In this document: in pieces, positions 183 to 10,765 of the stretch
How the letters are laid out: each line of letters starts with the position of its first letter
Numbering within the stretch: the first letter of the stretch is position 1
From: a bacterium HR30
GTDB taxonomy: Bacteria > Desulfobacterota > Binatia > HRBIN30
Assembly (NCBI GenBank): GCA_002898795.1
Contig: BEIG01000006.1
Location: 1 to 51,569, forward strand
Reading direction: 5' to 3'
DNA: 51,569 nt
The notes under the pieces: model-generated
The model's input: the letters and a program-made list of their open reading frames with translations, nothing else
The model's database searches: none
Told to the model about the DNA's origin: nothing
Position numbers and translations under genes: made by a program

Positions 183-404
183 CCAGAGCGAACTGCACCA
201 AAAGACGCCGCACCTCTGGTGCCGCACCTCAGCGCAGCAGCGCATGGCTACGTCCAGCTTCACGCCGCTTGGCTGCTTTCGGCAACGAAACCGATCCATC
301 TCTGCCTTCATGCACCCGATCGCGGCGCCTCCGCCCCCTTGCTGGCAACCCGCAGCACCCAAAACTCATCCGATCCCTTCACCTTGTGCTGTCGGTGGAC
401 GTTC

Positions 405-764
405 ATGAAGAATGCGGGCTGAGGGCGGCGAGCAGGCAGATGAAAGCGCCCCACGAGTTTCCAACCAGGTACGCCGGGGCCAGATCGAGACTCTGGATCA
501 GGCTGAGGAGATCGTCAACGTGTGGCCCCTTCTGGTCGTCGTAGCCCTCGGGGATCTCCTCATTGCGACGAGCGTAACGGCGGCTGTACACGACGACTCG
601 GTGCTCGTTGGCAACGCATCGAGTTGCTGGAGCCAGGTGCGAAGGTCGCTGTAGCCGCCGTGCCCGAACACGACGCTCGGTGCGCCAGCTCCCCGCTGCA
701 CATGAGCGAGCTTAACGCCGTTGAGGACCACGGTTCGAAGCCCTGACACCGCAAAGGCAAGCAT
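405..764 (-). pseudogene. alpha/beta-hydrolase, frameshifted and truncated
   Basis: Two minus-strand reading frames together make the N-terminal half of an alpha/beta-hydrolase. The first (from ATG 764) reads LRTVVLNGVKLAHVQRG, then VVFGHGGYSDLRTWL, which is the oxyanion HG segment. After about position 612 the homology shifts frame to ANEHRVVVYSRRYARR and VGNSWGAFICLLAAL, where GNSWGA is the G-x-S-x-G nucleophile elbow. One missing base near 612 explains the shift. Homology ends at about 405 just after the nucleophile helix, so the cap and the catalytic Asp and His are missing. The gene lies directly after the attC at 907-966 and on the same strand as the other cassettes, so it may be a third cassette that was later cut by the IS fragment to its left. 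Confidence 0.7.
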
Positions 765-906
765 GTGTAGTGCTCCTGTGATGTCGTTGAAAGGTGTAGG
801 GTGGGAAATCGTTAACAAAATTCGCCGCATTATTCACTCGAGTCATTCATACTCTCACCTCCCGATGTGGAGTAATGGGACCCGCAGTCCTTCGGTTAGC
901 CAAGCC

Positions 907-966
907 GCCTAACGCGGCGATGAGCCGCGCAGTTTATTGTCGTCGGTCTCCATCGCCTTGTTAGGC
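907..966 (-). other. attC: attC recombination site (59-be) no. 1
   Basis: The outer arms are GCCTAAC (907-913) and GTTAGGC (960-966), exact matches to the RYYYAAC and GTTRRRY core sites. Inner arms GGCGATG (916-922) and CATCGCC (951-957) are perfectly complementary and set off from the outer arms by two bases on each side. The site is 60 bp long, as expected for a short attC. In the orientation of the neighbouring minus-strand genes it closes the cassette that begins at about 1933, with the crossover expected between 913 and 912. Confidence 0.85.
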
Positions 967-1008
967 ACCGCCCTTGGTTTGCTTGTCATCACGCCTAACA
1001 CGACCGAC

Positions 1009-1235
1009 TCAGTACTGTGGGCGACAACTCTGGTGAGCCACAACCAAGATGAGCAAACCATCCTGCTCAACTGAGTAGACAAGTGAGTACCGGTATTTCC
1101 GGAGTAGCCGCTTCCGGGTGCCCGGTCGAATCTCCTCGGTGGATTCCGGGAATCGTGCGATGAGGCCTCAGCCTGGCTGACTTCTGCAAAGAAGCGTCGG
1201 CCTAGCCCTTGGGCGCGGTTAGTCATCATTTGCAT
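1009..1235 (-). pseudogene. ParE/RelE-type toxin relic in integron cassette
   Basis: The first frame (from 1235) reads NRAQGLGRRFFAEVSQAEA, the usual helix of RelE/ParE toxins. After a one-base loss the next frame continues IARFPESTEEIRPGTRKRLL, then RYSLVYSVEQDGLLILVVAH, then QSCRPQY and a TGA at 1011-1009. The order RxxLLRxxxYSLVY, ILxVAHQ and RP.Y is characteristic of the ParE family. About 25 N-terminal residues are missing because an in-frame stop lies just upstream, and the start overlaps the end of the preceding gene. No antitoxin gene is visible. The relic lies between the BamE-like cassette gene and attC no. 1, so the cassette once carried, or captured, a toxin gene. It cannot make an intact toxin as read. 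Confidence 0.75.
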
Positions 1236-1906
1236 CCGCCATATCCTTCAAAACTCCAAACCCTTAGAACTTCGCCGGAGAATATCAGACGCAGGTAAAA
1301 GGGCGGCACATATGCGGGGCTCGGCCGGTCGACATAGAGAATCATCGTGTCTACACCGTCTTCCTCTACTCGAATTGGCTGAGTAACCTTCTTGAAATAC
1401 GTGGGTGTCTCTTTTTCGCCTCTCCCGAAAAGCTTCCACCATTGGAATGCCGCTGTCAGTTCTTCTCTGGTGGTTACGCCCTTCTTGATGATTCCGTCTA
1501 TCTCCATCCATGTAGGCGGGTCGCACATGCTGGCGTACCATCGTTTGGTTTCCTCGGCGCTCTCGAGGATCCTAAGCCGCCGGCCTGTTTGTAGATGGAA
1601 AAAAGCCCAGTCGGACACTCGCCCGGCGGTGTCGAACCATACTTTCAAAACCGGGGCTGGGACAATCGGGTGAAGTTTCGTACGTATCGGATACCACCAT
1701 TCGGTACCAAGGACGTCAGAGAACACATAGGCAGGCTTGCCGAGCAGCTTCAACACCTCGGACTTCGATGTCTCGCCGTTCCGGAGCCCCTTGACGTCAA
1801 TCGTATAACTGTCAACGTCTGGAACATCCACATCAAACTTGGTGGAGCCAGGAGTCAGCAATAGCCACTGCAGGAGCAAGACGGCTGTAGCGCGACTAGG
1901 TGGCAT
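1226..1906 (-). CDS. cassette-borne secreted protein with BamE/SmpA-like repeats
   Basis: This 226-residue protein begins only 27 bp after the predicted crossover of attC no. 2, the usual short leader of an integron cassette gene. The N-terminus (residues 3-17, ATAVLLLQWLLLTPG) looks like a signal peptide; there is no lipobox Cys. Residues of about 40-95 contain GLRNGETSKSEVLKLLGKP followed by WWYPI and VLKVWFDTAGRVSDW. This is the turn-helix-beta pattern of BamE/SmpA-OmlA-like domains (G.tTk.eVl..lG.P, then an aromatic strand and a gly-rich hairpin). A second copy may start near IIKKGVTTREELTAAF. I infer a periplasmic or envelope role only from the fold; I do not recognise a specific homologue. 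The frame is intact, unlike its neighbours. Confidence 0.7.
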   Translation of the reverse strand: MPPSRATAVLLLQWLLLTPGSTKFDVDVPDVDSYTIDVKGLRNGETSKSEVLKLLGKPAYVFSDVLGTEWWYPIRTKLHPIVPAPVLKVWFDTAGRVSDWAFFHLQTGRRLRILESAEETKRWYASMCDPPTWMEIDGIIKKGVTTREELTAAFQWWKLFGRGEKETPTYFKKVTQPIRVEEDGVDTMILYVDRPSPAYVPPFYLRLIFSGEVLRVWSFEGYGGCK

Positions 1907-1927
1907 AGTGAAGTCACCACCTCGGCT

Positions 1928-1987
1928 GGCTAACGGCCGGGTTCAGCCGCGCCGCTTCGCGGCGTCGGCTGCAACCCGTTGTTGGGC
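1928..1987 (-). other. attC: attC recombination site (59-be) no. 2
   Basis: Read in gene orientation, the outer core sites are GCCCAAC (1987-1981, perfect RYYYAAC) and GTTAGCC (1934-1928, one base off GTTRRRY). Between them is a long imperfect hairpin: CGGGTT 1938-1943 with AACCCG 1973-1978, CAGCCG 1944-1949 with CGGCTG 1966-1971, and CGCCGC 1950-1955 with GCGGCG 1959-1964, with loop TTC. Bases C1972 and T1965 are unpaired on one arm, matching the extrahelical bases that IntI reads in folded attC. It lies 13 bp downstream of the DUF4440 stop codon and 22 bp upstream of the next cassette gene. Confidence 0.88.
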
Positions 1988-2000
1988 GTCCCTGCTCTGT

Positions 2001-2450
2001 TCACTGCAGACACCACGCTTTACTGAGGGCGAGACAGTAGCCCTCGATAATGTCCGTATTCTGTGAGTCGATGATCGGCCATGCACCCGAACTGCGAGCG
2101 AGCACGCTGAGAAGGATCCCGCTGCGTGGGGGCAGTGGCGCGCCCTCGGGAGAGACATACCCTTCAAGAACCCAGCGAGACCTGGCAATGACAATACCCG
2201 CGACAGGGAATCGAACCGAAGCGTCTGCGATCGTCAATTGGCTGTTTTTGAACGTCGTTGCGTGCGTAAGCTCGTCGGCCTTCTTGATTTCATCCCTACC
2301 TTTCCACCAGAGACCCACGACGTTGAGGAACTCCGCATCCGGCGCGAAGAGCTCAGCAAATGTGTTCATGTCATGCCGGTTCCAGCGTTCAGCGAATGCG
2401 TGGACAACTTGCGTTACCTTGCACAGTCCGAATGTCATAGCCGACTTCAA
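2001..2450 (-). CDS. SnoaL-like DUF4440 (SgcJ/EcaC-type) protein, 5' end fused to intI remnant
   Basis: This is a 149-residue NTF2-fold protein. Residues 12-50 (VTQVVHAFAERWNRHDMNT then FAELFAPDAEFLNVVGLWW) match the SgcJ/EcaC and DUF4440 family signature: a helix ending in WNRHD, then F..LFA.DAEF.NV.G.WW.G. The family includes small-molecule isomerase-like and ketosteroid-type proteins, and many members have no known substrate. It ends 13 bp before attC no. 2, so it is a cassette gene. Its first 10 or so codons (2450-2419) are the same bases that encode the GYDIRTVQ motif of the adjoining integrase in another frame, so the present start is a junction product and the native N-terminus is probably lost. 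Function and expression are uncertain. Confidence 0.75.
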   Translation of the reverse strand: MKSAMTFGLCKVTQVVHAFAERWNRHDMNTFAELFAPDAEFLNVVGLWWKGRDEIKKADELTHATTFKNSQLTIADASVRFPVAGIVIARSRWVLEGYVSPEGAPLPPRSGILLSVLARSSGAWPIIDSQNTDIIEGYCLALSKAWCLQ

Positions 2451-3270
2451 TGAGCTACGTTGCAGACGAATGCCTGAGTCTCACAGGTCCCCCTTTTGGT
2501 CAATCCTGCCTTTGCAACCGCTTGCCTGAATGCCTTCTGCAAAACGGATTCATCCACGTGATGACGTCCTTGCTCTGCTGTCTTTTCGTTCTTCCACCGA
2601 TGTTTTTGGGGAAACACGCATTGCCGCCGCCACTTTCTCGGGGCATTCGGACACCTTTGATCCAGCGCGTTTGGCAATGGAACTCTACCATAACCGTCGC
2701 CCCAACCTTTTCGTGCAACGCCTCGACCTTTCGCAAATGATCCTCGAGCGGCTCTTTCAGCGAGTGAGGGCGACATCACCCGGTCTTTGGTGCCCTCGCC
2801 ATCCCGAACCGCGATTTCGTTGTGCACGCAATTGAACCCATTCCATCAGGCAAAAACCAGAACCCGCACACCAGACTTGCCATGAGCCATCTGCCACCGC
2901 GTAGGTGGTGCAGCACTGTGCTCGCCTCTTCGGGAGTGAAAACGACCGGGAGATGGTTCGCTTTGCGGGCGTGGACCACTTTGCCGATCTCGCCGATCTC
3001 CCGATCGAGGGCGTGACGATAAAGAAAGAACGGCCCCGAGAGACCCTGATTCCGCATCGAGACGCCGATCCGTTCTTTCACGGCCAGATGGGTCAGAAGA
3101 ACGTTCGTTACCGGCTCGCCCATGTTGCGGATGGCACTTGCCTTGAAAGAAGATGAATCGTTCGATCCCGGTCGCGTCGGCCTTTTCGGCCCGTGCGCTC
3201 TAGTGGCGAGCGCGCAGCGTGCTTGGCGTGCCTGATCCAAGAACCTGTGTTTCAGCAGGTTGGTGGGCGG
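2419..3270 (-). pseudogene. intI: integron integrase (IntI-type tyrosine recombinase), decayed
   Basis: Segments in all three minus-strand frames align in order with IntI. They are FLDQARQA, then LRARH-stop-SARAEKAD with IERFIFFQGKCHP, LLTHLAVKERIGVSMRNQ with LPVVFTPEEA, the EIAVRDGEGTKDRV strand, GRVPLPNALDQRCPNAPRKW, then RRHHVDESVLQKAFRQAVAK and AGLTKRGT, and finally RLRHSSAT-stop-LIEVGYDIRTVQ. The RHH.DESVLQ.A..RA stretch is the IntI-specific insert and the following motif, that distinguish integron integrases from XerC/D. At least five frame changes and two internal stops are present. The catalytic Arg box I region is scrambled, RHS (box II) survives, and the sequence stops at GYDIRTVQ, so the second His and the Tyr nucleophile are gone. 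It is inactive. Its orientation points into the cassettes rather than away from them. Confidence 0.88.
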
Positions 3271-4656
3271 ATCGAAACCTGCAACGGGCTGCGGCGCACG
3301 GCTCGTGAGCGACCCCTGCCCCCTTGAGACCACCTCGTTGACCGTCCGCCTCTGCATGGAAACGCTGCTTCACCGCGCCCAGCCTAGTGAGCGTCTGGTC
3401 TTTTCAGTCCCGAGACACGATCGCATTTCCCCGAGCAGGCACCCAAAAGATGGAGCAGGAATCTCCTCGGCCTCGAAAAGCGACACTCTGGAACGAGAAG
3501 AGCCGCGTGCAAGCCCGGCCAACGTCCGGGGGCAGTTGCCCCCACGACCTCGGCAAATTCCAAAGGCACGAAGCGTTCGATGCCGTAACCCTTGCTCGTT
3601 GTGGAACCGACCTCGGCCTGGACTGTTTGTCCTTCGGGTAACCGTCCACCCGCGCCCGCTCACCGCAGTCATTCCGCGTTGGCACGGCGTTTCCCCATCC
3701 GTACCACCGCTTGACGAAATGGAACCATCGGAGAAAATGCTCGAAGCCTCAGCCGATCCCGCCGGTGGAGAATCTGGGAACATGCGGCTCCAACAAGAGC
3801 CAAGTGTCTGCGATGTACAAACGGTGGTGGGACTGCCCCCGCCGTTGTTTTCCTGGCGCTCATTCCACTTCCGAAACGTGTGGCTCGTGCGACCCCGTCG
3901 AGAGATGGTGTCTGTGTGGGGTACACTCTACCGCTCGACGATGAAGCAAGCGCGGTTCGGAAGTTTCTTCGGGAAGTGCTTCCGGCGTTTGAACCTTCCG
4001 AGCGGATTCACCCCGAGTCTGGCCTAAGCGCCCCGAAATCTTGGGCCGGCGGCAAATTCCAGAGCAGCATCTGGGTTGTCTCCAAAACGGGCACAGCGAC
4101 CGGGCACGGCCCAGCGAAGACTTCCTTGTTCCAGTGCGGATGGTGCTCGATCATTTGCTGCTCTGCCCCTGTCTAGCTCCAGGCGCCGATGCCAATGCCC
4201 AGATTGCCGCCGCGGAGATCCGAAAAACGTTGGATCCGCTCTAGCGGTCCGCTCGCCCAGTGCATCGATTCCGGCGGGAGGCGGCTAACCGGCGGCAGGA
4301 AACTCGCCTTTGCTCGTCGCGCAGGACGGAAAGTCGGCCGCTACGCGCACTGCTTTTGCCTTTTACACCCTCGGGGAATCGGGGAAAGGGAACACTCTAC
4401 CCTCGCCCATGGCCTGCGTGGACGAGCGTGGCTCGCTGCGATCGCGGGCACCCCATGCGCCAGGCATGTGCTTGGTCTCGCCAAACCCCGCACGAGCGCT
4501 CCGATGCACTGGACAATCACGCTGCGGGCCGGCGTCTCGAGCACAAAACGGGCCATCCTCGAGCCCGGGCATCGCTTTCGCTTCCGCTGGCGGGTTGCGG
4601 AGGGTTGCCCGTTTCTGATAGGCAAGTTCGGTTCACGAAAACCACGGAGAGTCCGT
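3271..4656. other. unassigned region between intI relic and rpsB
   Basis: About 1.4 kb holds no gene I can recognise. Open frames exist on both strands (for example 3260-4027 plus and 3404-3685 minus), but their translations are rich in Arg, Pro and Ser and show no family motif, as expected for shadow frames of GC-rich sequence. Short stretches such as a minus-strand FLRWFHFVKRWYGWGNAVP (about 3680-3740) and a plus-strand FLREVLPAFEPSERIHPE (about 3955-4010) look protein-like and may be remains of decayed genes. The frame of rpsB stays open upstream to 4189, but that extension has no conserved sequence. The rpsB operon promoter should lie in the last few hundred bases; I cannot point to a convincing one. 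Confidence 0.4.
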
Positions 4657-5445
4657 ATGACAGAAGTCAGCATGAAAAGCTTACTCGAGGCCGGGGTGCA
4701 CTTCGGCCATCAAACCAGCCGGTGGAACCCAAAGATGAAGCCCTACATCTTTGGAGCCCGCAACGGCATTCACATCATCGACTTGCAAAAGACCGTTCAG
4801 TTGTTCCAACAGGCTTACGCCTTCGTGCGGGACGTGGCAGCGCGCGGGGGTACTGTCCTATTCGTGGGGACCAAGAAGCAAGCGCAAGATGCTGTGCGCG
4901 AGGAGGCCGAACGTTGCGGCATGTTTTATGTCAACAACCGCTGGCTCGGGGGCACGCTGACGAACTTCCAAACCATCAAGCAAAGCATCGACCGGTTAAA
5001 AAAATGCGAAGAGATTCTCGCGGACGAGAACATGGTGCAAGCGCTGACCAAGCGAGAGATGTTGCGGATCCAGCGTGAGCGCGACAAGCTTTTGGCCGCC
5101 CTTGGGGGTATCAAAAACATGCGCAAGCTGCCGGACGCCCTGTTCGTGATCGACCCCAAGAAGGAAGAAATTGCGGTCCGCGAGGCCAATAAGCTGCGGA
5201 TCCCCGTTGTGGCCGTGATCGACACGAACTGCGACCCCGATTTGGTGGACTACAAAATCCCAGGGAACGACGACGCCATCCGCGCGATTCGTTTGTTTTG
5301 CGCGGCAATCGCCGACGCAGTGATCGAGGGCAAGCAAATCCGAGAGGAACAGGCGAAGGCCTCTGAAATGGAAACGCCCGTGGCTGGTGGCGAGGTCGAG
5401 CCCGGCAGCGAGGAAGAACATGCGTCGGAGGGGGTAGTGGCATGA
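4657..5445 (+). CDS. rpsB: 30S ribosomal protein S2
   Basis: Ribosomal protein S2 binds the 16S rRNA head-body junction of the 30S subunit and is needed to recruit S1. The 262-residue product has the N-terminal signature [19 protein letters not shown] followed by [13 protein letters not shown], the [11 protein letters not shown] strand, the [11 protein letters not shown] motif, and [16 protein letters not shown] with IPGNDDA, all in the family order. The start ATG 4657 is chosen because it follows GGAGA by six bases and begins exactly where S2 homology begins, although the frame is open further upstream. The acidic C-terminal tail ([14 protein letters not shown]) extends beyond the usual core. 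tsf overlaps its end by four bases (ATGA), so the two are translationally coupled. Confidence 0.97.
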
Positions 5446-6065
5446 GCGAAGTCAGTGCGGCCCAGGTGCGCGAACTCCGCGAACGCACCGGCGCGGGGAT
5501 GTTGGACTGCAAAAAGGCTCTCGCCGAGGCTGGGGGCGATATGGAGAAAGCCATCCAGCTTCTCCGCGAGAAAGGCTTGGCGACAGCCCAAAAGAAAGCA
5601 GGGCGGATCGCGAGCCAAGGCATGGTGGGCTCTTACATCCATGCCGGGGGCAAAATTGGGGTGCTGATCGAGGTCAATTGCGAGACGGACTTCGTGGCAC
5701 GCACGAGCGAGTTTCAGGAACTCGTGCGCGACCTGGCGATGCAAGTTGCCGCTGCCAACCCCCGATGGGTGCGGCGGGAGGAGGTGCCGGCGGCAGTCAT
5801 CGAAAGCGAACGGAACATCTACCGAGCGCAAGCCGCGAGCTCGGGTAAGCCCCCTCAGGTGGTCGAAAAGATCGTCGAAGGAAAGCTCGAAAAGTTCTTT
5901 GCCGACACGTGCTTGCTCGAACAGCCTTTCATCAAGGACCCTGATCGGACCGTGGGGCAACTGGTCACGGAGGCGATTTCCCGCATCGGCGAGAACATCG
6001 TCGTGCGCCGGTTCGCTCGCTTCCAACTCGGCGAACTCTCCGAACCCTCTTCTGCCGCCGCGTGA
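5442..6065 (+). CDS. tsf: elongation factor Ts (short form)
   Basis: EF-Ts is the guanine-nucleotide exchange factor that recycles EF-Tu. Residues 5-45 contain the UBA-like N-terminal domain with the hallmark [20 protein letters not shown], followed by [20 protein letters not shown] and CETDFVAR, the EF-Tu-contacting core. At 207 residues it is close to the short single-core EF-Ts of Thermus (about 196) and well below E. coli (283): the second half of the core and the coiled coil are reduced. It starts inside the rpsB stop codon and is followed nine bases later by pyrH, the standard rpsB-tsf-pyrH-frr order. Confidence 0.97.
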
Positions 6066-6824
<759 letters not shown>

Positions 6825-6842
6825 CGCGAAGTGGGGGTCACC

Positions 6843-7406
6843 ATGGCGGAAGCGGAACCCGTGCTGGAAAAGCTCAAGCAGGAGTTGGAATCGACGGTAC
6901 AAGCATTGCGGCGGGAGCTTGCGCGGTTACGCACCGGAAGGGCAACAACGGCCCTGCTCGATGGCATCACCGTCGACTACTACGGGGCACGAACGCCCCT
7001 GAATCAAGTGGCCACGCTCTCGGCACCGGAACCGCGGTTGCTGGTGATTCAACCTTTCGATCGTTCGCTACTCGGCGAGATCGAGCGGGCCATTCAGCAG
7101 TCGGACCTAGGTTTGCACCCTGTCAATGACGGGAAAATCATTCGCGTACCGATCCCGGAACTGACGGAAGAGCGGCGCAAAGAACTGGTACGGCACGTGC
7201 GGAAGATGTGCGAAGAGTATCGCGTGTCCGCACGCAACCATCGCCGCGAGGCGGTAGAACGCCTGCGCACGATGCTCAAGAACAAGGAGCTTGCCGAAGA
7301 CGACGAGCGCAAGGCGTTGGAGAAGGTGGAATCTCTCACGAAAACCTACATCGAGCGCATCGACCAAGCCCTGAAACACAAAGAAGCGGAAATCATGGAG
7401 GTTTGA
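6843..7406 (+). CDS. frr: ribosome recycling factor
   Basis: RRF, with EF-G, splits post-termination ribosomes. The product of ATG 6843 has 187 residues, matching the usual 185. It has the two-domain tRNA-mimic pattern: LRRELARLRTGRATTALLDG of the long helix, VDYYGARTPLNQVATLS and PRLLVIQPFD of the beta domain, then DLGLHPVNDGKIIRVPIPEL and the terminal helices (TEERRKELVRHVRKM). I chose ATG 6843 over the GTG at 6831 because GGGGGT lies just before it and because homology starts there. It is the fourth gene of the rpsB operon. Confidence 0.97.
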   Translation: MAEAEPVLEKLKQELESTVQALRRELARLRTGRATTALLDGITVDYYGARTPLNQVATLSAPEPRLLVIQPFDRSLLGEIERAIQQSDLGLHPVNDGKIIRVPIPELTEERRKELVRHVRKMCEEYRVSARNHRREAVERLRTMLKNKELAEDDERKALEKVESLTKTYIERIDQALKHKEAEIMEV

Positions 7407-7412
7407 ACCCCG

Positions 7413-8183
7413 GTGCCCCGGCCCTTACCCGAAAACCTCGATCTCAGCCGCCTACCACGCCACGTGGCCATTATCATGGACGGAAATGGGCGTTGGGCGC
7501 AGCGGCGCGGTTTGAGTCGGATCGAGGGGCATAAGCGCGGCAAAGATTCCGTGCGTGCCGTAGTCGAGGCGAGCCGCCGGATCGGCATCGAGTATCTGAG
7601 CCTCTTTGCCTTTTCTACGGAAAATTGGGAGCGGCCCCGCCGAGAGGTGGACGCATTGATGAGCTTGCTGCAGCGCTACCTGCGGACCGAGTTGCACCGC
7701 ATGATGAAGAACGGCATTCGCTTAGTTGCCGTTGGCGATCTGCGGCGCCTGCCCCCGCGACTGCAAGCCGATCTCGAAGCTACCGTACAAGCAACCCGTA
7801 ACAACCGCGACATGACCGTGGTCCTCGCCGTCAGCTACGGAGGCCGCGAGGACATCGTGCAAGCCGCTCGCGCACTGGCCCAAGCCGCCCGCGACGGCCG
7901 CATCGACCCCGAGCGGATCGATGCCTCCACTTTTGCTGCGTACTTAAGCACGGCGGGCATTCCGGATCCGGATCTTCTCATCCGCACGAGCGGCGAGTTG
8001 CGGATTTCCAACTTCTTTCTATGGCCGCTCGCTTACAGCGAAATTTACGTGACCGACACCTTGTGGCCAGATTTCCGCGAAGCCGAGTTTTACCAAGCGC
8101 TCATCGCCTATCAGCAACGCGAGCGCCGTTTCGGCCGCGTTCCGGCTGAACGCGAACGGGAGCGCCTGCGTGTTGCGCGCTAG
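7413..8183 (+). CDS. uppS: undecaprenyl diphosphate synthase (cis-prenyltransferase)
   Basis: UppS adds eight isoprene units in cis to farnesyl diphosphate to make the C55 carrier for peptidoglycan and O-antigen. Residues 18-31 (HVAIIMDGNGRWAQ) hold the catalytic Asp at residue 23 and the pyrophosphate-binding residues. GHKRGKDSVRAVVEASRRIG and LSLFAFSTENWERP follow, and the C-terminal PDLLIRTSGELRISNFFLWP with YSEIYVTD is the second diphosphate-binding region. The length of 256 residues is typical. It begins with GTG 7413, preceded by GGAGG at 7396-7401, and overlaps cdsA by 14 bases. Confidence 0.97.
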   Translation: MPRPLPENLDLSRLPRHVAIIMDGNGRWAQRRGLSRIEGHKRGKDSVRAVVEASRRIGIEYLSLFAFSTENWERPRREVDALMSLLQRYLRTELHRMMKNGIRLVAVGDLRRLPPRLQADLEATVQATRNNRDMTVVLAVSYGGREDIVQAARALAQAARDGRIDPERIDASTFAAYLSTAGIPDPDLLIRTSGELRISNFFLWPLAYSEIYVTDTLWPDFREAEFYQALIAYQQRERRFGRVPAERERERLRVAR

Positions 8184-8976
8184 ATTGGCCACGGCAGCAG
8201 TAGCCATTCCCCTGCTGCTACTCGTGATCTTCGCCCCTGTCTCCTGGCCCATGGCGACCGTGGTGTTCGTTGCTGGGATTCTTGGGGCGGCGGAGATTGC
8301 CAATATGGCTTTTTTGCGCCACCCGGCGGAGCAAATTCTCATTGTCGGGCTCACCGGGCTGGTTATGGCCGGGGCGCTCGGCGGGCCGACAAGCCCTTGG
8401 CTCGCCTTGTCGATCACGGCAAGCGTTTGCTTGGGGCTGACCTGGGTACTGTTCCGCCGCTCGGATTTCGAAGCTGGGCTGCGCGACTTAGGCCTAGCCC
8501 TCTTGGGCGCTTTGTACGTGGGCCTGCTGCTTTCCCACTTCCTTTGGTTGCATCGGCTTCCTGGCAACGGCCCCTATTGGGTGGTGTTCGTGCTCGCCAT
8601 CGGCATGGTCGGGGATACGACGGGATATTTTGTCGGAAAGTACCTCGGCCGTCACCAATTGGCCCCGCTGGTGAGCCCGAAAAAAACAGTCGAAGGTGCG
8701 CTCGGCATCGTGGTCGCTAGTGTTCTGACGGGCATCGTCTGCCACTACCTCGTCCTGCGCGACGTTCCGTTCAATCACATTGTATTTTTGGCGACGACCA
8801 TGGGCGTGATTGGGCAGATTGGCGACCTTTCCGAGTCGCTGTTCAAGCGCGCCTTTGGGGTCAAAGACTCAGGGTGGATTTTCCCTGGTCACGGCGGCGT
8901 ACTCGATCGAGTGGACAGCCTGCTTTTCCCCGCTGCCTTCGTGTACTACCATCAAATGCTGTTGCGAGGGGCTTAA
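8170..8976 (+). CDS. cdsA: phosphatidate cytidylyltransferase (CDP-diacylglycerol synthase)
   Basis: CdsA makes CDP-diacylglycerol from phosphatidate and CTP, the precursor used by the pssA and psd products encoded further along in this window. The 268-residue protein has several hydrophobic helices (for example residues 8-25, 36-60 and 62-100) and the family signature near the C-terminus: DLSESLFKRAFGVKDSGWIF then PGHGGVLDRVDS, with the metal-binding Asp residues. GDTTGYFVGKYLGRH and VSPKKTVEGALG are also classic. The GTG start at 8170 lies within uppS (14-base overlap). In many bacteria dxr follows cdsA; here rseP does. Confidence 0.96.
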   Translation: MLRARLATAAVAIPLLLLVIFAPVSWPMATVVFVAGILGAAEIANMAFLRHPAEQILIVGLTGLVMAGALGGPTSPWLALSITASVCLGLTWVLFRRSDFEAGLRDLGLALLGALYVGLLLSHFLWLHRLPGNGPYWVVFVLAIGMVGDTTGYFVGKYLGRHQLAPLVSPKKTVEGALGIVVASVLTGIVCHYLVLRDVPFNHIVFLATTMGVIGQIGDLSESLFKRAFGVKDSGWIFPGHGGVLDRVDSLLFPAAFVYYHQMLLRGA

Positions 8977-8996
8977 AACGCTAAGAGAGTTTGCTC

Positions 8997-10073
8997 ATGT
9001 TCACGACCATCGTTGCTGCCGTTGTTGTCCTTGGTTTTTTGATCTTGTTTCATGAGCTTGGCCATTTTCTCGTCGCCAAATGGTGTGGCGTGGGAGTCGT
9101 CAAGTTTTCCATCGGGTTTGGCCCCGTATTGATTGGCAAAAAGATCGGCCCCACCGAGTACGCCATTAGCGCCATCCCGCTCGGGGGATTTGTGAAGATG
9201 GTCGGTGAGGATCCCGACGAAGAAGTTGTGCAAGCCGACCGGTCGATCGCGTTTCAAACTCAGCCCCTGTGGAAACGTTTCCTCATTGTCTTTGCCGGCC
9301 CGTTTGCCAACCTGTTGTTCGCGTTCGTGGCCTTTAGTCTGGTGTTCTCCTTGTACGGAGCCCGGGTGCCAAGCGACGCTCCCAAGGTGGGCAATGTCGT
9401 GCCCGACATGCCAGCGGCCGCTGCCGGAGTCCAGCCCGGCGACTTGGTGAAGGCGGTGGACGGAAAACCAGTCTCCACGTGGGAAGAATTGTCCCGTACC
9501 ATCCGGCAAAGCGGGCCAAAGCCGCTCACCCTGCAGGTGGAGCGGAACGGCGAGCAGTTGGAGCTTACCGTTACACCGAAAGAGAAAGAAGAAAAGAATT
9601 TGTTCGGTGAGGTTACCGGGAAAGCTTACCTGATTGGCATCGAGCGTGGGCTGGACAAAATCGAGGTGGGCCCACTTGGTGCCATCGGCATGGGCGCACA
9701 ACAGACCGTGTGGTGGGTGGTCACCATTTTCACCAGCCTGGCAAAGATGATTCAGGGCAAAATCCCTGCCAGCGAGATCGGCGGTCCGATTTTGATTGCG
9801 CAGGCAGCCGGGGAACAAGCACGGCTGGGCTTGGAGTACCTGTTGCACTTCATGGCTGTCATCAGCGTGAACCTCGGCGTGCTCAATTTGCTGCCGGTGC
9901 CCATTTTGGACGGCGGACATTTGCTGTTCTTTTTGATCGAGGCCATTCGGCGGCGGCCGCTGGACACACGCTACCGGGAAATTGCCCAACAGGTAGGGCT
10001 CATTCTGCTGCTGGCGTTAATGGTCTTCGCCTTTTACAACGACATTGCGCGCGTGTTGCAGCGCTGGGGATGA
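8997..10073 (+). CDS. rseP: RIP metalloprotease RseP (site-2 protease)
   Basis: RseP is an inner-membrane zinc protease that cleaves anti-sigma factors and remnant signal peptides within the membrane. The 358-residue product has HELGH at residues 19-23 (zinc ligands and catalytic Glu) in the first membrane helix, a second helix near residues 95-115, one PDZ domain (about 120-200, with AAAAGVQPGDLVKAVDGK), and LLPVPILDGGH with the third zinc ligand at Asp305. E. coli RseP has two PDZ domains; this one seems to have one, as in many other lineages. ATG 8997 is preferred over TTG 8991 because AAGAGAG lies seven bases upstream of the ATG. It overlaps tsaB by ATGA. Confidence 0.96.
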   Translation: MFTTIVAAVVVLGFLILFHELGHFLVAKWCGVGVVKFSIGFGPVLIGKKIGPTEYAISAIPLGGFVKMVGEDPDEEVVQADRSIAFQTQPLWKRFLIVFAGPFANLLFAFVAFSLVFSLYGARVPSDAPKVGNVVPDMPAAAAGVQPGDLVKAVDGKPVSTWEELSRTIRQSGPKPLTLQVERNGEQLELTVTPKEKEEKNLFGEVTGKAYLIGIERGLDKIEVGPLGAIGMGAQQTVWWVVTIFTSLAKMIQGKIPASEIGGPILIAQAAGEQARLGLEYLLHFMAVISVNLGVLNLLPVPILDGGHLLFFLIEAIRRRPLDTRYREIAQQVGLILLLALMVFAFYNDIARVLQRWG

Positions 10074-10765
10074 ACATGCGCATTTTGGCCATCGAAACCT
10101 CCACGTGGCTGGCGAGTGTGGCGGTTGCGGAAAACGGGGAAGTGCTCGCAGAATGGGAGGCCCTCACTCGTGGCCAGCATGCGTCGGTCCTGCTGCCAGC
10201 GATCCGCGAGGTGTTGGCGCAAGCAAGGCTCGGGTTGGAACAACTCGACGCGGTGGCTGTTTCCGTCGGGCCTGGTTCCTTCACGGGCCTGCGAGTCGGG
10301 CTGAGTGTTGCCAAAGCTCTCGCCTATGCGCGGAAAACTGCGGTCGTCGGTATCCCGACGCTCGAAGTGGTTGCGCACGCGGCGCCGGCGGATGCGGCTT
10401 ACGTTGCGGCCGCGCTGGATGCACGGAAGGGCGAGCTTTATGCGGCGGTGTTTCGCCGCGTCGGTGCGGAGCTGGAGCCCTGCGTGCCCGAGCGGTTGGT
10501 CTCCTTCGAAGCGTTCCTTGCAAGCCTTCCGCGCCCTTGTACGATCTTGGGCGACGCGGTGGAACGCTACGGCGACCTTTTCCATCAACGCCTGGGCGAG
10601 CACGGCAACATTTTACCGTTTCCGCAATGGGCACCCCGCGCTCGGGTCGTCGCTCAACTTGCTCGCCGGCAGCTTGCGCGGTTTGGTCTGCCCACACAGT
10701 GGCCCGAAGAGCCGCACTACTTGCGGCCGCCCGAAGCGCAGGTACATCGGAGCCGTGCCGCCTGA
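10070..10765 (+). CDS. tsaB: tRNA threonylcarbamoyladenosine biosynthesis protein TsaB
   Basis: TsaB is the partner that scaffolds TsaD and TsaE in making t6A37 in ANN-decoding tRNAs. The 231-residue product has the ASKHA fold N-terminus MRILAIETSTWLASVAV, then QHASVLLPAIREVL, AVSVGPGSFTGLRVGLSVAK with the typical GPGSFTGLR, and a degenerate C-terminal half that lacks TsaD-type metal ligands. The start at ATG 10070 overlaps the rseP stop codon; ATG 10076 is an equally plausible alternative two codons on. TsaD and TsaE are not in this window. Confidence 0.95.
   Translation: MNMRILAIETSTWLASVAVAENGEVLAEWEALTRGQHASVLLPAIREVLAQARLGLEQLDAVAVSVGPGSFTGLRVGLSVAKALAYARKTAVVGIPTLEVVAHAAPADAAYVAAALDARKGELYAAVFRRVGAELEPCVPERLVSFEAFLASLPRPCTILGDAVERYGDLFHQRLGEHGNILPFPQWAPRARVVAQLARRQLARFGLPTQWPEEPHYLRPPEAQVHRSRAA

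Follow-up and report, generated by a model that had tools for sequence, protein, structure and literature searches.

Architecture of the locus

The stretch of DNA analysed here (the window) is the entire 51,569-nt contig BEIG01000006.1 (C6) of bacterium HR30, a member of the Binatia whose assembly (G000) comprises 3.73 Mb in 211 contigs and is 95.8% complete. Close to the left end of the contig, which falls inside a cassette array, the minus strand carries two attC recombination sites, cassette genes and a broken gene for the integron integrase, IntI (Table 1).

Table 1. Features of the integron locus. Positions are those of the window unless a contig is named
Feature	Position	Strand	Evidence and remarks
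IS1380-type (DDE_Tnp_1_4) transposase, C-terminal end, cut by the contig end	3..182	+	PF13701 positions 381-433, E 1.1e-6
Alpha/beta hydrolase gene relic, frame-broken and truncated	403..830	-	PF00561, E 7.5e-5 for 403-591
attC site 1 (60 nt, GCCTAAC...GTTAGGC)	907..966	-	R1 35.6 bits, E 1.2e-6; DNA fold z -5.4 to -5.65
Sole complete cassette, 1021 bp between two G/TT crossover points	913..1933	-	Read from the sequence; holds the BamE-domain frame
Cassette reading frame, 226 aa, weak BamE domain	1226..1906	-	Pfam PF04355, E 4.9e-5
attC site 2 (60 nt, GCCCAAC...GTTAGCC)	1928..1987	-	R1 59.2 bits, E 2.5e-12; fold z about -4.8
First cassette gene, SnoaL / SgcJ-EcaC type, intact 145-aa frame	2001..2438	-	TIGR02246, E 1.5e-18; cassette 5' edge lost
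intI pseudogene, residues 1-283 of 315	2419..3243	-	7 frameshifts and 2 stops; C-terminal 32 codons lost, the Tyr among them
Integron island, right border	4577..4657	+	Similarity to the rpsB leader of congener G001 restarts here
IS1380-type transposase, N-terminal part, opening contig C121	C121:3-425		PF13701 positions 3-146

Rfam models at gathering scores gave no match within the window, and we therefore built our own attC model. A pattern search had first been run for RYYYAAC/GTTRRRY core pairs able to fold; it returned the site at 907-966 in the window and many sites in the integrons of relatives. The covariance model, R1, was built from 16 attC sites of relatives, none of them from the window, and was run with filters off. 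It found exactly two strong places in the 51.6 kb, the best unrelated match reaching 13.3 bits, and so recovered independently, at identical coordinates, the two minus-strand sites that an initial annotation had proposed from the sequence alone. Plus-strand scores were 22.9 bits at 1928-1987 and 16.0 bits at 907-966, about 36 and 20 bits lower, which identifies minus as the cassette (top) strand. As single-stranded DNA, both sites fold far better than shuffled sequences (z about -5). Site 2 is closely akin to an attC in genome G007, and its right-hand core, GTTAGCC, has one departure from GTTRRRY; its R boxes are paired in the minimum-energy structure of the bottom (plus) strand, not in that of the top strand, in keeping with bottom-strand recombination. 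Extra unpaired bases lie in the 5' arm of the minus-strand attC, matching the usual polarity of extrahelical bases in such sites. The locus thus has attC sites between cassettes with a predicted recombinogenic fold.

On another contig of the same genome, C12 (locus L186), attC-like sites were detected on the minus strand at 2996-3056, 3492-3562, 4202-4266 and 4781-4843 (27.2, 13.5, 31.4 and 20.2 bits, respectively), spaced by about 500-700 bp and without IntI; the member at 13.5 bits is within chance. This cluster is probably a second degenerate array, a putative decayed cluster of attC sites lacking an integrase (CALIN).

Upstream of the cassettes, the two longest minus-strand frames of the relic match the NCBIfam profile TIGR02249 (integrase_gron) at positions 147-263, where the IntI-specific insert lies (E 3.6e-24), and at positions 37-127 (E 1.5e-14); the IntI alignment of the class agrees that this additional domain is present, here in a pseudogene only. 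A frameshift-aware alignment running from 3243 to 2419 recovered IntI residues 1-283; besides the seven frameshifts, two stops (3202 and 2457) and a gap of six codons interrupt it. The IntI of G001, a genome of the same genus, is identical at 164/270 positions and that of G009 at 149/283. The alignment ends at DIRTVQ, about 14 residues short of the catalytic Tyr (TTMIYTHV, ~297), so the relic lacks the nucleophile. Of the intI relic previously drawn at 2419-3270 with at least five frame breaks and no Tyr, the breaks stand and number more than five, the start moves to about 3243, and the Tyr proves to have gone through a 3' deletion, not a point change. A profile search found no other IntI in the genome, which upholds the earlier view that excision or capture would now depend on an integrase from outside. 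Two further TIGR02249 matches, on contigs C33 and C51, lack profile positions 190-239 and read as intact Xer-like recombinases. No LexA-like box (CTG N10 CAG) was found 5' of the relic or in G001.

Orientation and phylogeny of the integrase

intI and both attC sites lie on the minus strand, attC downstream of intI, so integrase and cassettes point in the same direction. To place this layout, 98 genomes of the same class were surveyed, 34 of which had an IntI above the curated cut-off; orientation, counted by hand from the tables, was readable at 29 loci. Co-orientation with attC downstream of intI was seen at 26 of the 29, and three loci (L070, L078 and L082) are divergent. Every readable locus of the relic's own family and order is co-oriented. 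Loci from named organisms comprise 10 co-oriented ones (Acidobacteriota, Omnitrophota, Planctomycetota and Cyanobacteriota) and 17 divergent ones, mostly from Pseudomonadota. The initial annotation had likened the layout to that of Treponema and assigned it to a few lineages. The likeness is borne out by the strands and by a clade shared with two Treponema IntIs, described below; the layout exists as stated, but its range was understated, since it is met in Acidobacteriota, Planctomycetota, Omnitrophota, Cyanobacteriota and throughout the relic's own class.

Two genomes of the survey, G064 (L077/L078) and G079 (L081/L082), each carry one co-oriented and one divergent integron, with IntIs that belong to different parts of the tree.

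The main IntI tree holds 53 labelled rows and excludes the Xer outgroup, the long-branch L082, L042 and L164; its two Treponema rows were scored as co-oriented from PMC3607928, not from arrays read here. Over these rows the orientation label changes once, against a mean of 15.8 changes for shuffled labels (branch support 94/97), and the tree with L082 and Xer included requires two changes. Together with the two Treponema IntIs, the relic belongs to a clade of 14 rows, supported by 99/99 in the Xer tree and 100/98 in the tree without Xer. Given the single label change, the 26 co-oriented loci out of 29 and the clade with Treponema, we conclude that the layout was inherited rather than produced by a local inversion, and that co-orientation appears to be a shared trait of one IntI branch.

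Co-oriented rows occupy the basal part of the Xer-rooted tree, and all divergent rows except L082 form one clade (99/98); long branches lead to the outgroup, and an attraction between L082 and Xer may be artefactual. That the integron layout changed essentially once, with co-orientation the older state and the divergent one (class 1, Vibrio) derived, is a tentative idea that we consider rather doubtful. L082 (5270-6199, G079), which is divergent, and L075 (9261-10187, G051) represent a deep long-branch IntI lineage beside the Xer outgroup.

Broken intI genes were also detected in two congeners, G001 (one stop) and G002 (six frameshifts and one stop), and these pseudogenes (L038 and L039) sit at other loci than the relic. 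On this ground we reject vertical descent at a single locus, and the integrons of the genus would therefore have moved or been acquired more than once. For a single clade of the three congeneric relics, the approximately unbiased test gave p=0.297. The relic's neighbours on the IntI tree belong to several phyla, which makes horizontal transfer of IntI plausible. In G021, three related integrons (L061, L062 and L063) have intI matches that are all incomplete or split.

A probable array between rpsB and ribF

Rightward from about 4657, the window carries genes that we take, from reading their open reading frames (ORFs), to be rpsB, tsf, pyrH, frr, uppS, cdsA and rseP. Positions 4577-9306 align with 4737-1 of the G001 locus L096 at 82% identity, and positions 5371-10716 of contig C121 align with 5358-10702 of the same locus at 75%. 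In G001, rpsB and ribF are divergent neighbours separated by only about 621 bp; G002 has the same rpsB-ribF order with different genes between them. Judged by this synteny, the integron appears to occupy the rpsB-ribF interval.

A scan of the genome with R1 detected a strong attC on C121 (2252-2311, 53.6 bits). This contig encodes a methyltransferase, followed by the attC, RibD_C-type genes, a 3-demethylubiquinone methyltransferase-type gene and ribF, and its cassettes head toward ribF. C6 and C121 each hold a PF13701 piece at the end that faces the other, in matching directions, and a PF13701 transposase copy on contig C76 comprises the middle and C-terminal portions. Because of the synteny with G001 and the transposase split over both contig ends, we place C6 and C121 next to each other. 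The simplest reading would be a single array from intI to ribF, its assembly split by an IS1380-type element; with the two contigs taken as one array, all their strong attC sites point from intI to ribF.

On the other side of intI, the 1.3 kb up to rpsB (3260-4576) is probably decayed DNA: none of the ORFs tried there matched Pfam, and the rpsB loci of the congeners contain nothing that matches it at the nucleotide level.

The intI-SnoaL junction and the cassettes

With the ORF started at TTG, similarity to TIGR02246 sets in at residue 11 (about 2420), and intI similarity stops at 2419, which argues that a deletion fused intI to the SnoaL gene. The deletion appears to have taken attI as well as the 3' end of intI and the cassette's left edge, while the SnoaL frame remained open. 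The first six to seven codons of this ORF, beginning with an ATG at 2438, lie inside intI DNA and out of the intI frame; this ATG may serve as the SnoaL start. SnoaL homologues align from about residue 6-14; those in the class are 26-34% identical, and none was found in the congeners. The junction at 2419/2420 leaves no space for an attI beside intI. We read its absence as a secondary loss and therefore class the locus as the relic of an integron rather than as a complete one.

The attC sites do lie between minus-strand cassette genes, as the initial annotation had it, although only one complete cassette is flanked by two of them. No homologue of its BamE-domain ORF was found elsewhere in a sample of 145 genomes of the class. 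The hydrolase relic, whose ORFs at 498-830 and 403-591 are in different frames, was probably a cassette as well.

Proposed origin and decay of the integron

Taken together, the sequence comparisons lead us to consider the locus, with a probability of roughly 93%, an extinct chromosomal integron, inserted between rpsB and ribF and with the co-oriented (inverted integrase) layout. The known mechanism and intact relatives suggest that, while it worked, cassettes would have been captured by IntI at an attI immediately 3' of intI, and that the array would have extended toward ribF on one strand throughout. The last 32 intI codons, including the one for the catalytic Tyr, would then have been lost in a deletion that also took attI and the first cassette's left edge and joined intI to the SnoaL gene. 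More frameshifts and stops would have built up and an IS1380-type insertion sequence (IS) would have entered the array; we assign no relative order to the deletion, the mutations and the IS. As no IntI remains in the genome, the cassettes would be frozen, and the unit at 913-1933 could be excised if IntI were given in trans. Some points weigh against this account. The congeners' relics lie at other loci, and the history of the locus would then include a move or a separate acquisition. C6 and C121 are not joined by sequence, their adjacency resting on synteny and the split transposase. The loss of attI is presumed, and the SnoaL gene may not be expressed.

Canonical integrons are divergent, as are three loci of the class, so the initial annotation had also considered a divergent integron whose intI segment was later inverted locally. 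Such an inversion is not needed and seems very improbable: the relatives in the same family and order are uniformly co-oriented, the relic groups with co-oriented IntIs in the Treponema-containing clade, and orientation takes a single change on the tree. It is hardly credible that the gene derives from a Xer- or phage-type tyrosine recombinase and that the palindromes are unrelated hairpins. Two Xer-type recombinases of this genome do match TIGR02249 weakly, but the relic retains the IntI insert, and the attC matches are specific and strand-biased. A still functional island, its cassettes mobilized in trans by an outside IntI as in a CALIN, would fit the survival of one complete cassette whose two attC sites can fold, as well as the degenerate attC cluster on C12; we regard this as improbable, given a 95.8% complete genome in which no IntI was found, a first cassette without its left edge, a changed core in site 2 and a decayed hydrolase cassette.

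Relation to known integrons

The extinct integron favoured here shares its co-oriented layout with the chromosomal integrons of Treponema (PMC3607928), whose IntIs share its supported clade of 14 rows; it differs in lineage, in its dead intI, in its short and decayed array and in its rpsB-ribF location. PMC10500605, citing Domingues 2012, names an 'inverted integrase group' of IntI phylogenies. The relic is alike in the co-orientation of intI and cassettes and in its phylogenetic placement with Treponema, and on both counts falls within the group.

Decay of intI is common: pseudogenes make up nearly one third of intI genes in one study (PMC2426708) and 43% in another (PMC3108266). As in those pseudo-integrons, frameshifts and stops have killed the integrase while cassettes persist; unlike them, the relic has its 3' end fused to the first cassette gene, with an ORF that starts in intI DNA. 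CALIN, defined as attC clusters without an integrase (PMC8618304), likewise hold attC-bearing cassettes and no working integrase, and mechanism (ii) of that work, the loss of a recognisable intI, fits. In contrast to CALIN, remains of intI are still recognisable here, which makes the locus a stage on the way to one. Since both intI decay and co-orientation are known, the locus is real but of a known kind; new are the intI-SnoaL fusion, the place between rpsB and ribF, and the clade-level account of the orientation.

The locus illustrates the fate of a dying integron: intI is fused to the first cassette by deletion, the array harbours an IS, and the cassettes are left behind among housekeeping genes. 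The co-oriented layout is usually quoted for Treponema; our survey suggests that it is the rule in this class, is spread over several phyla and follows IntI phylogeny, which makes the question of the ancestral integron layout testable.
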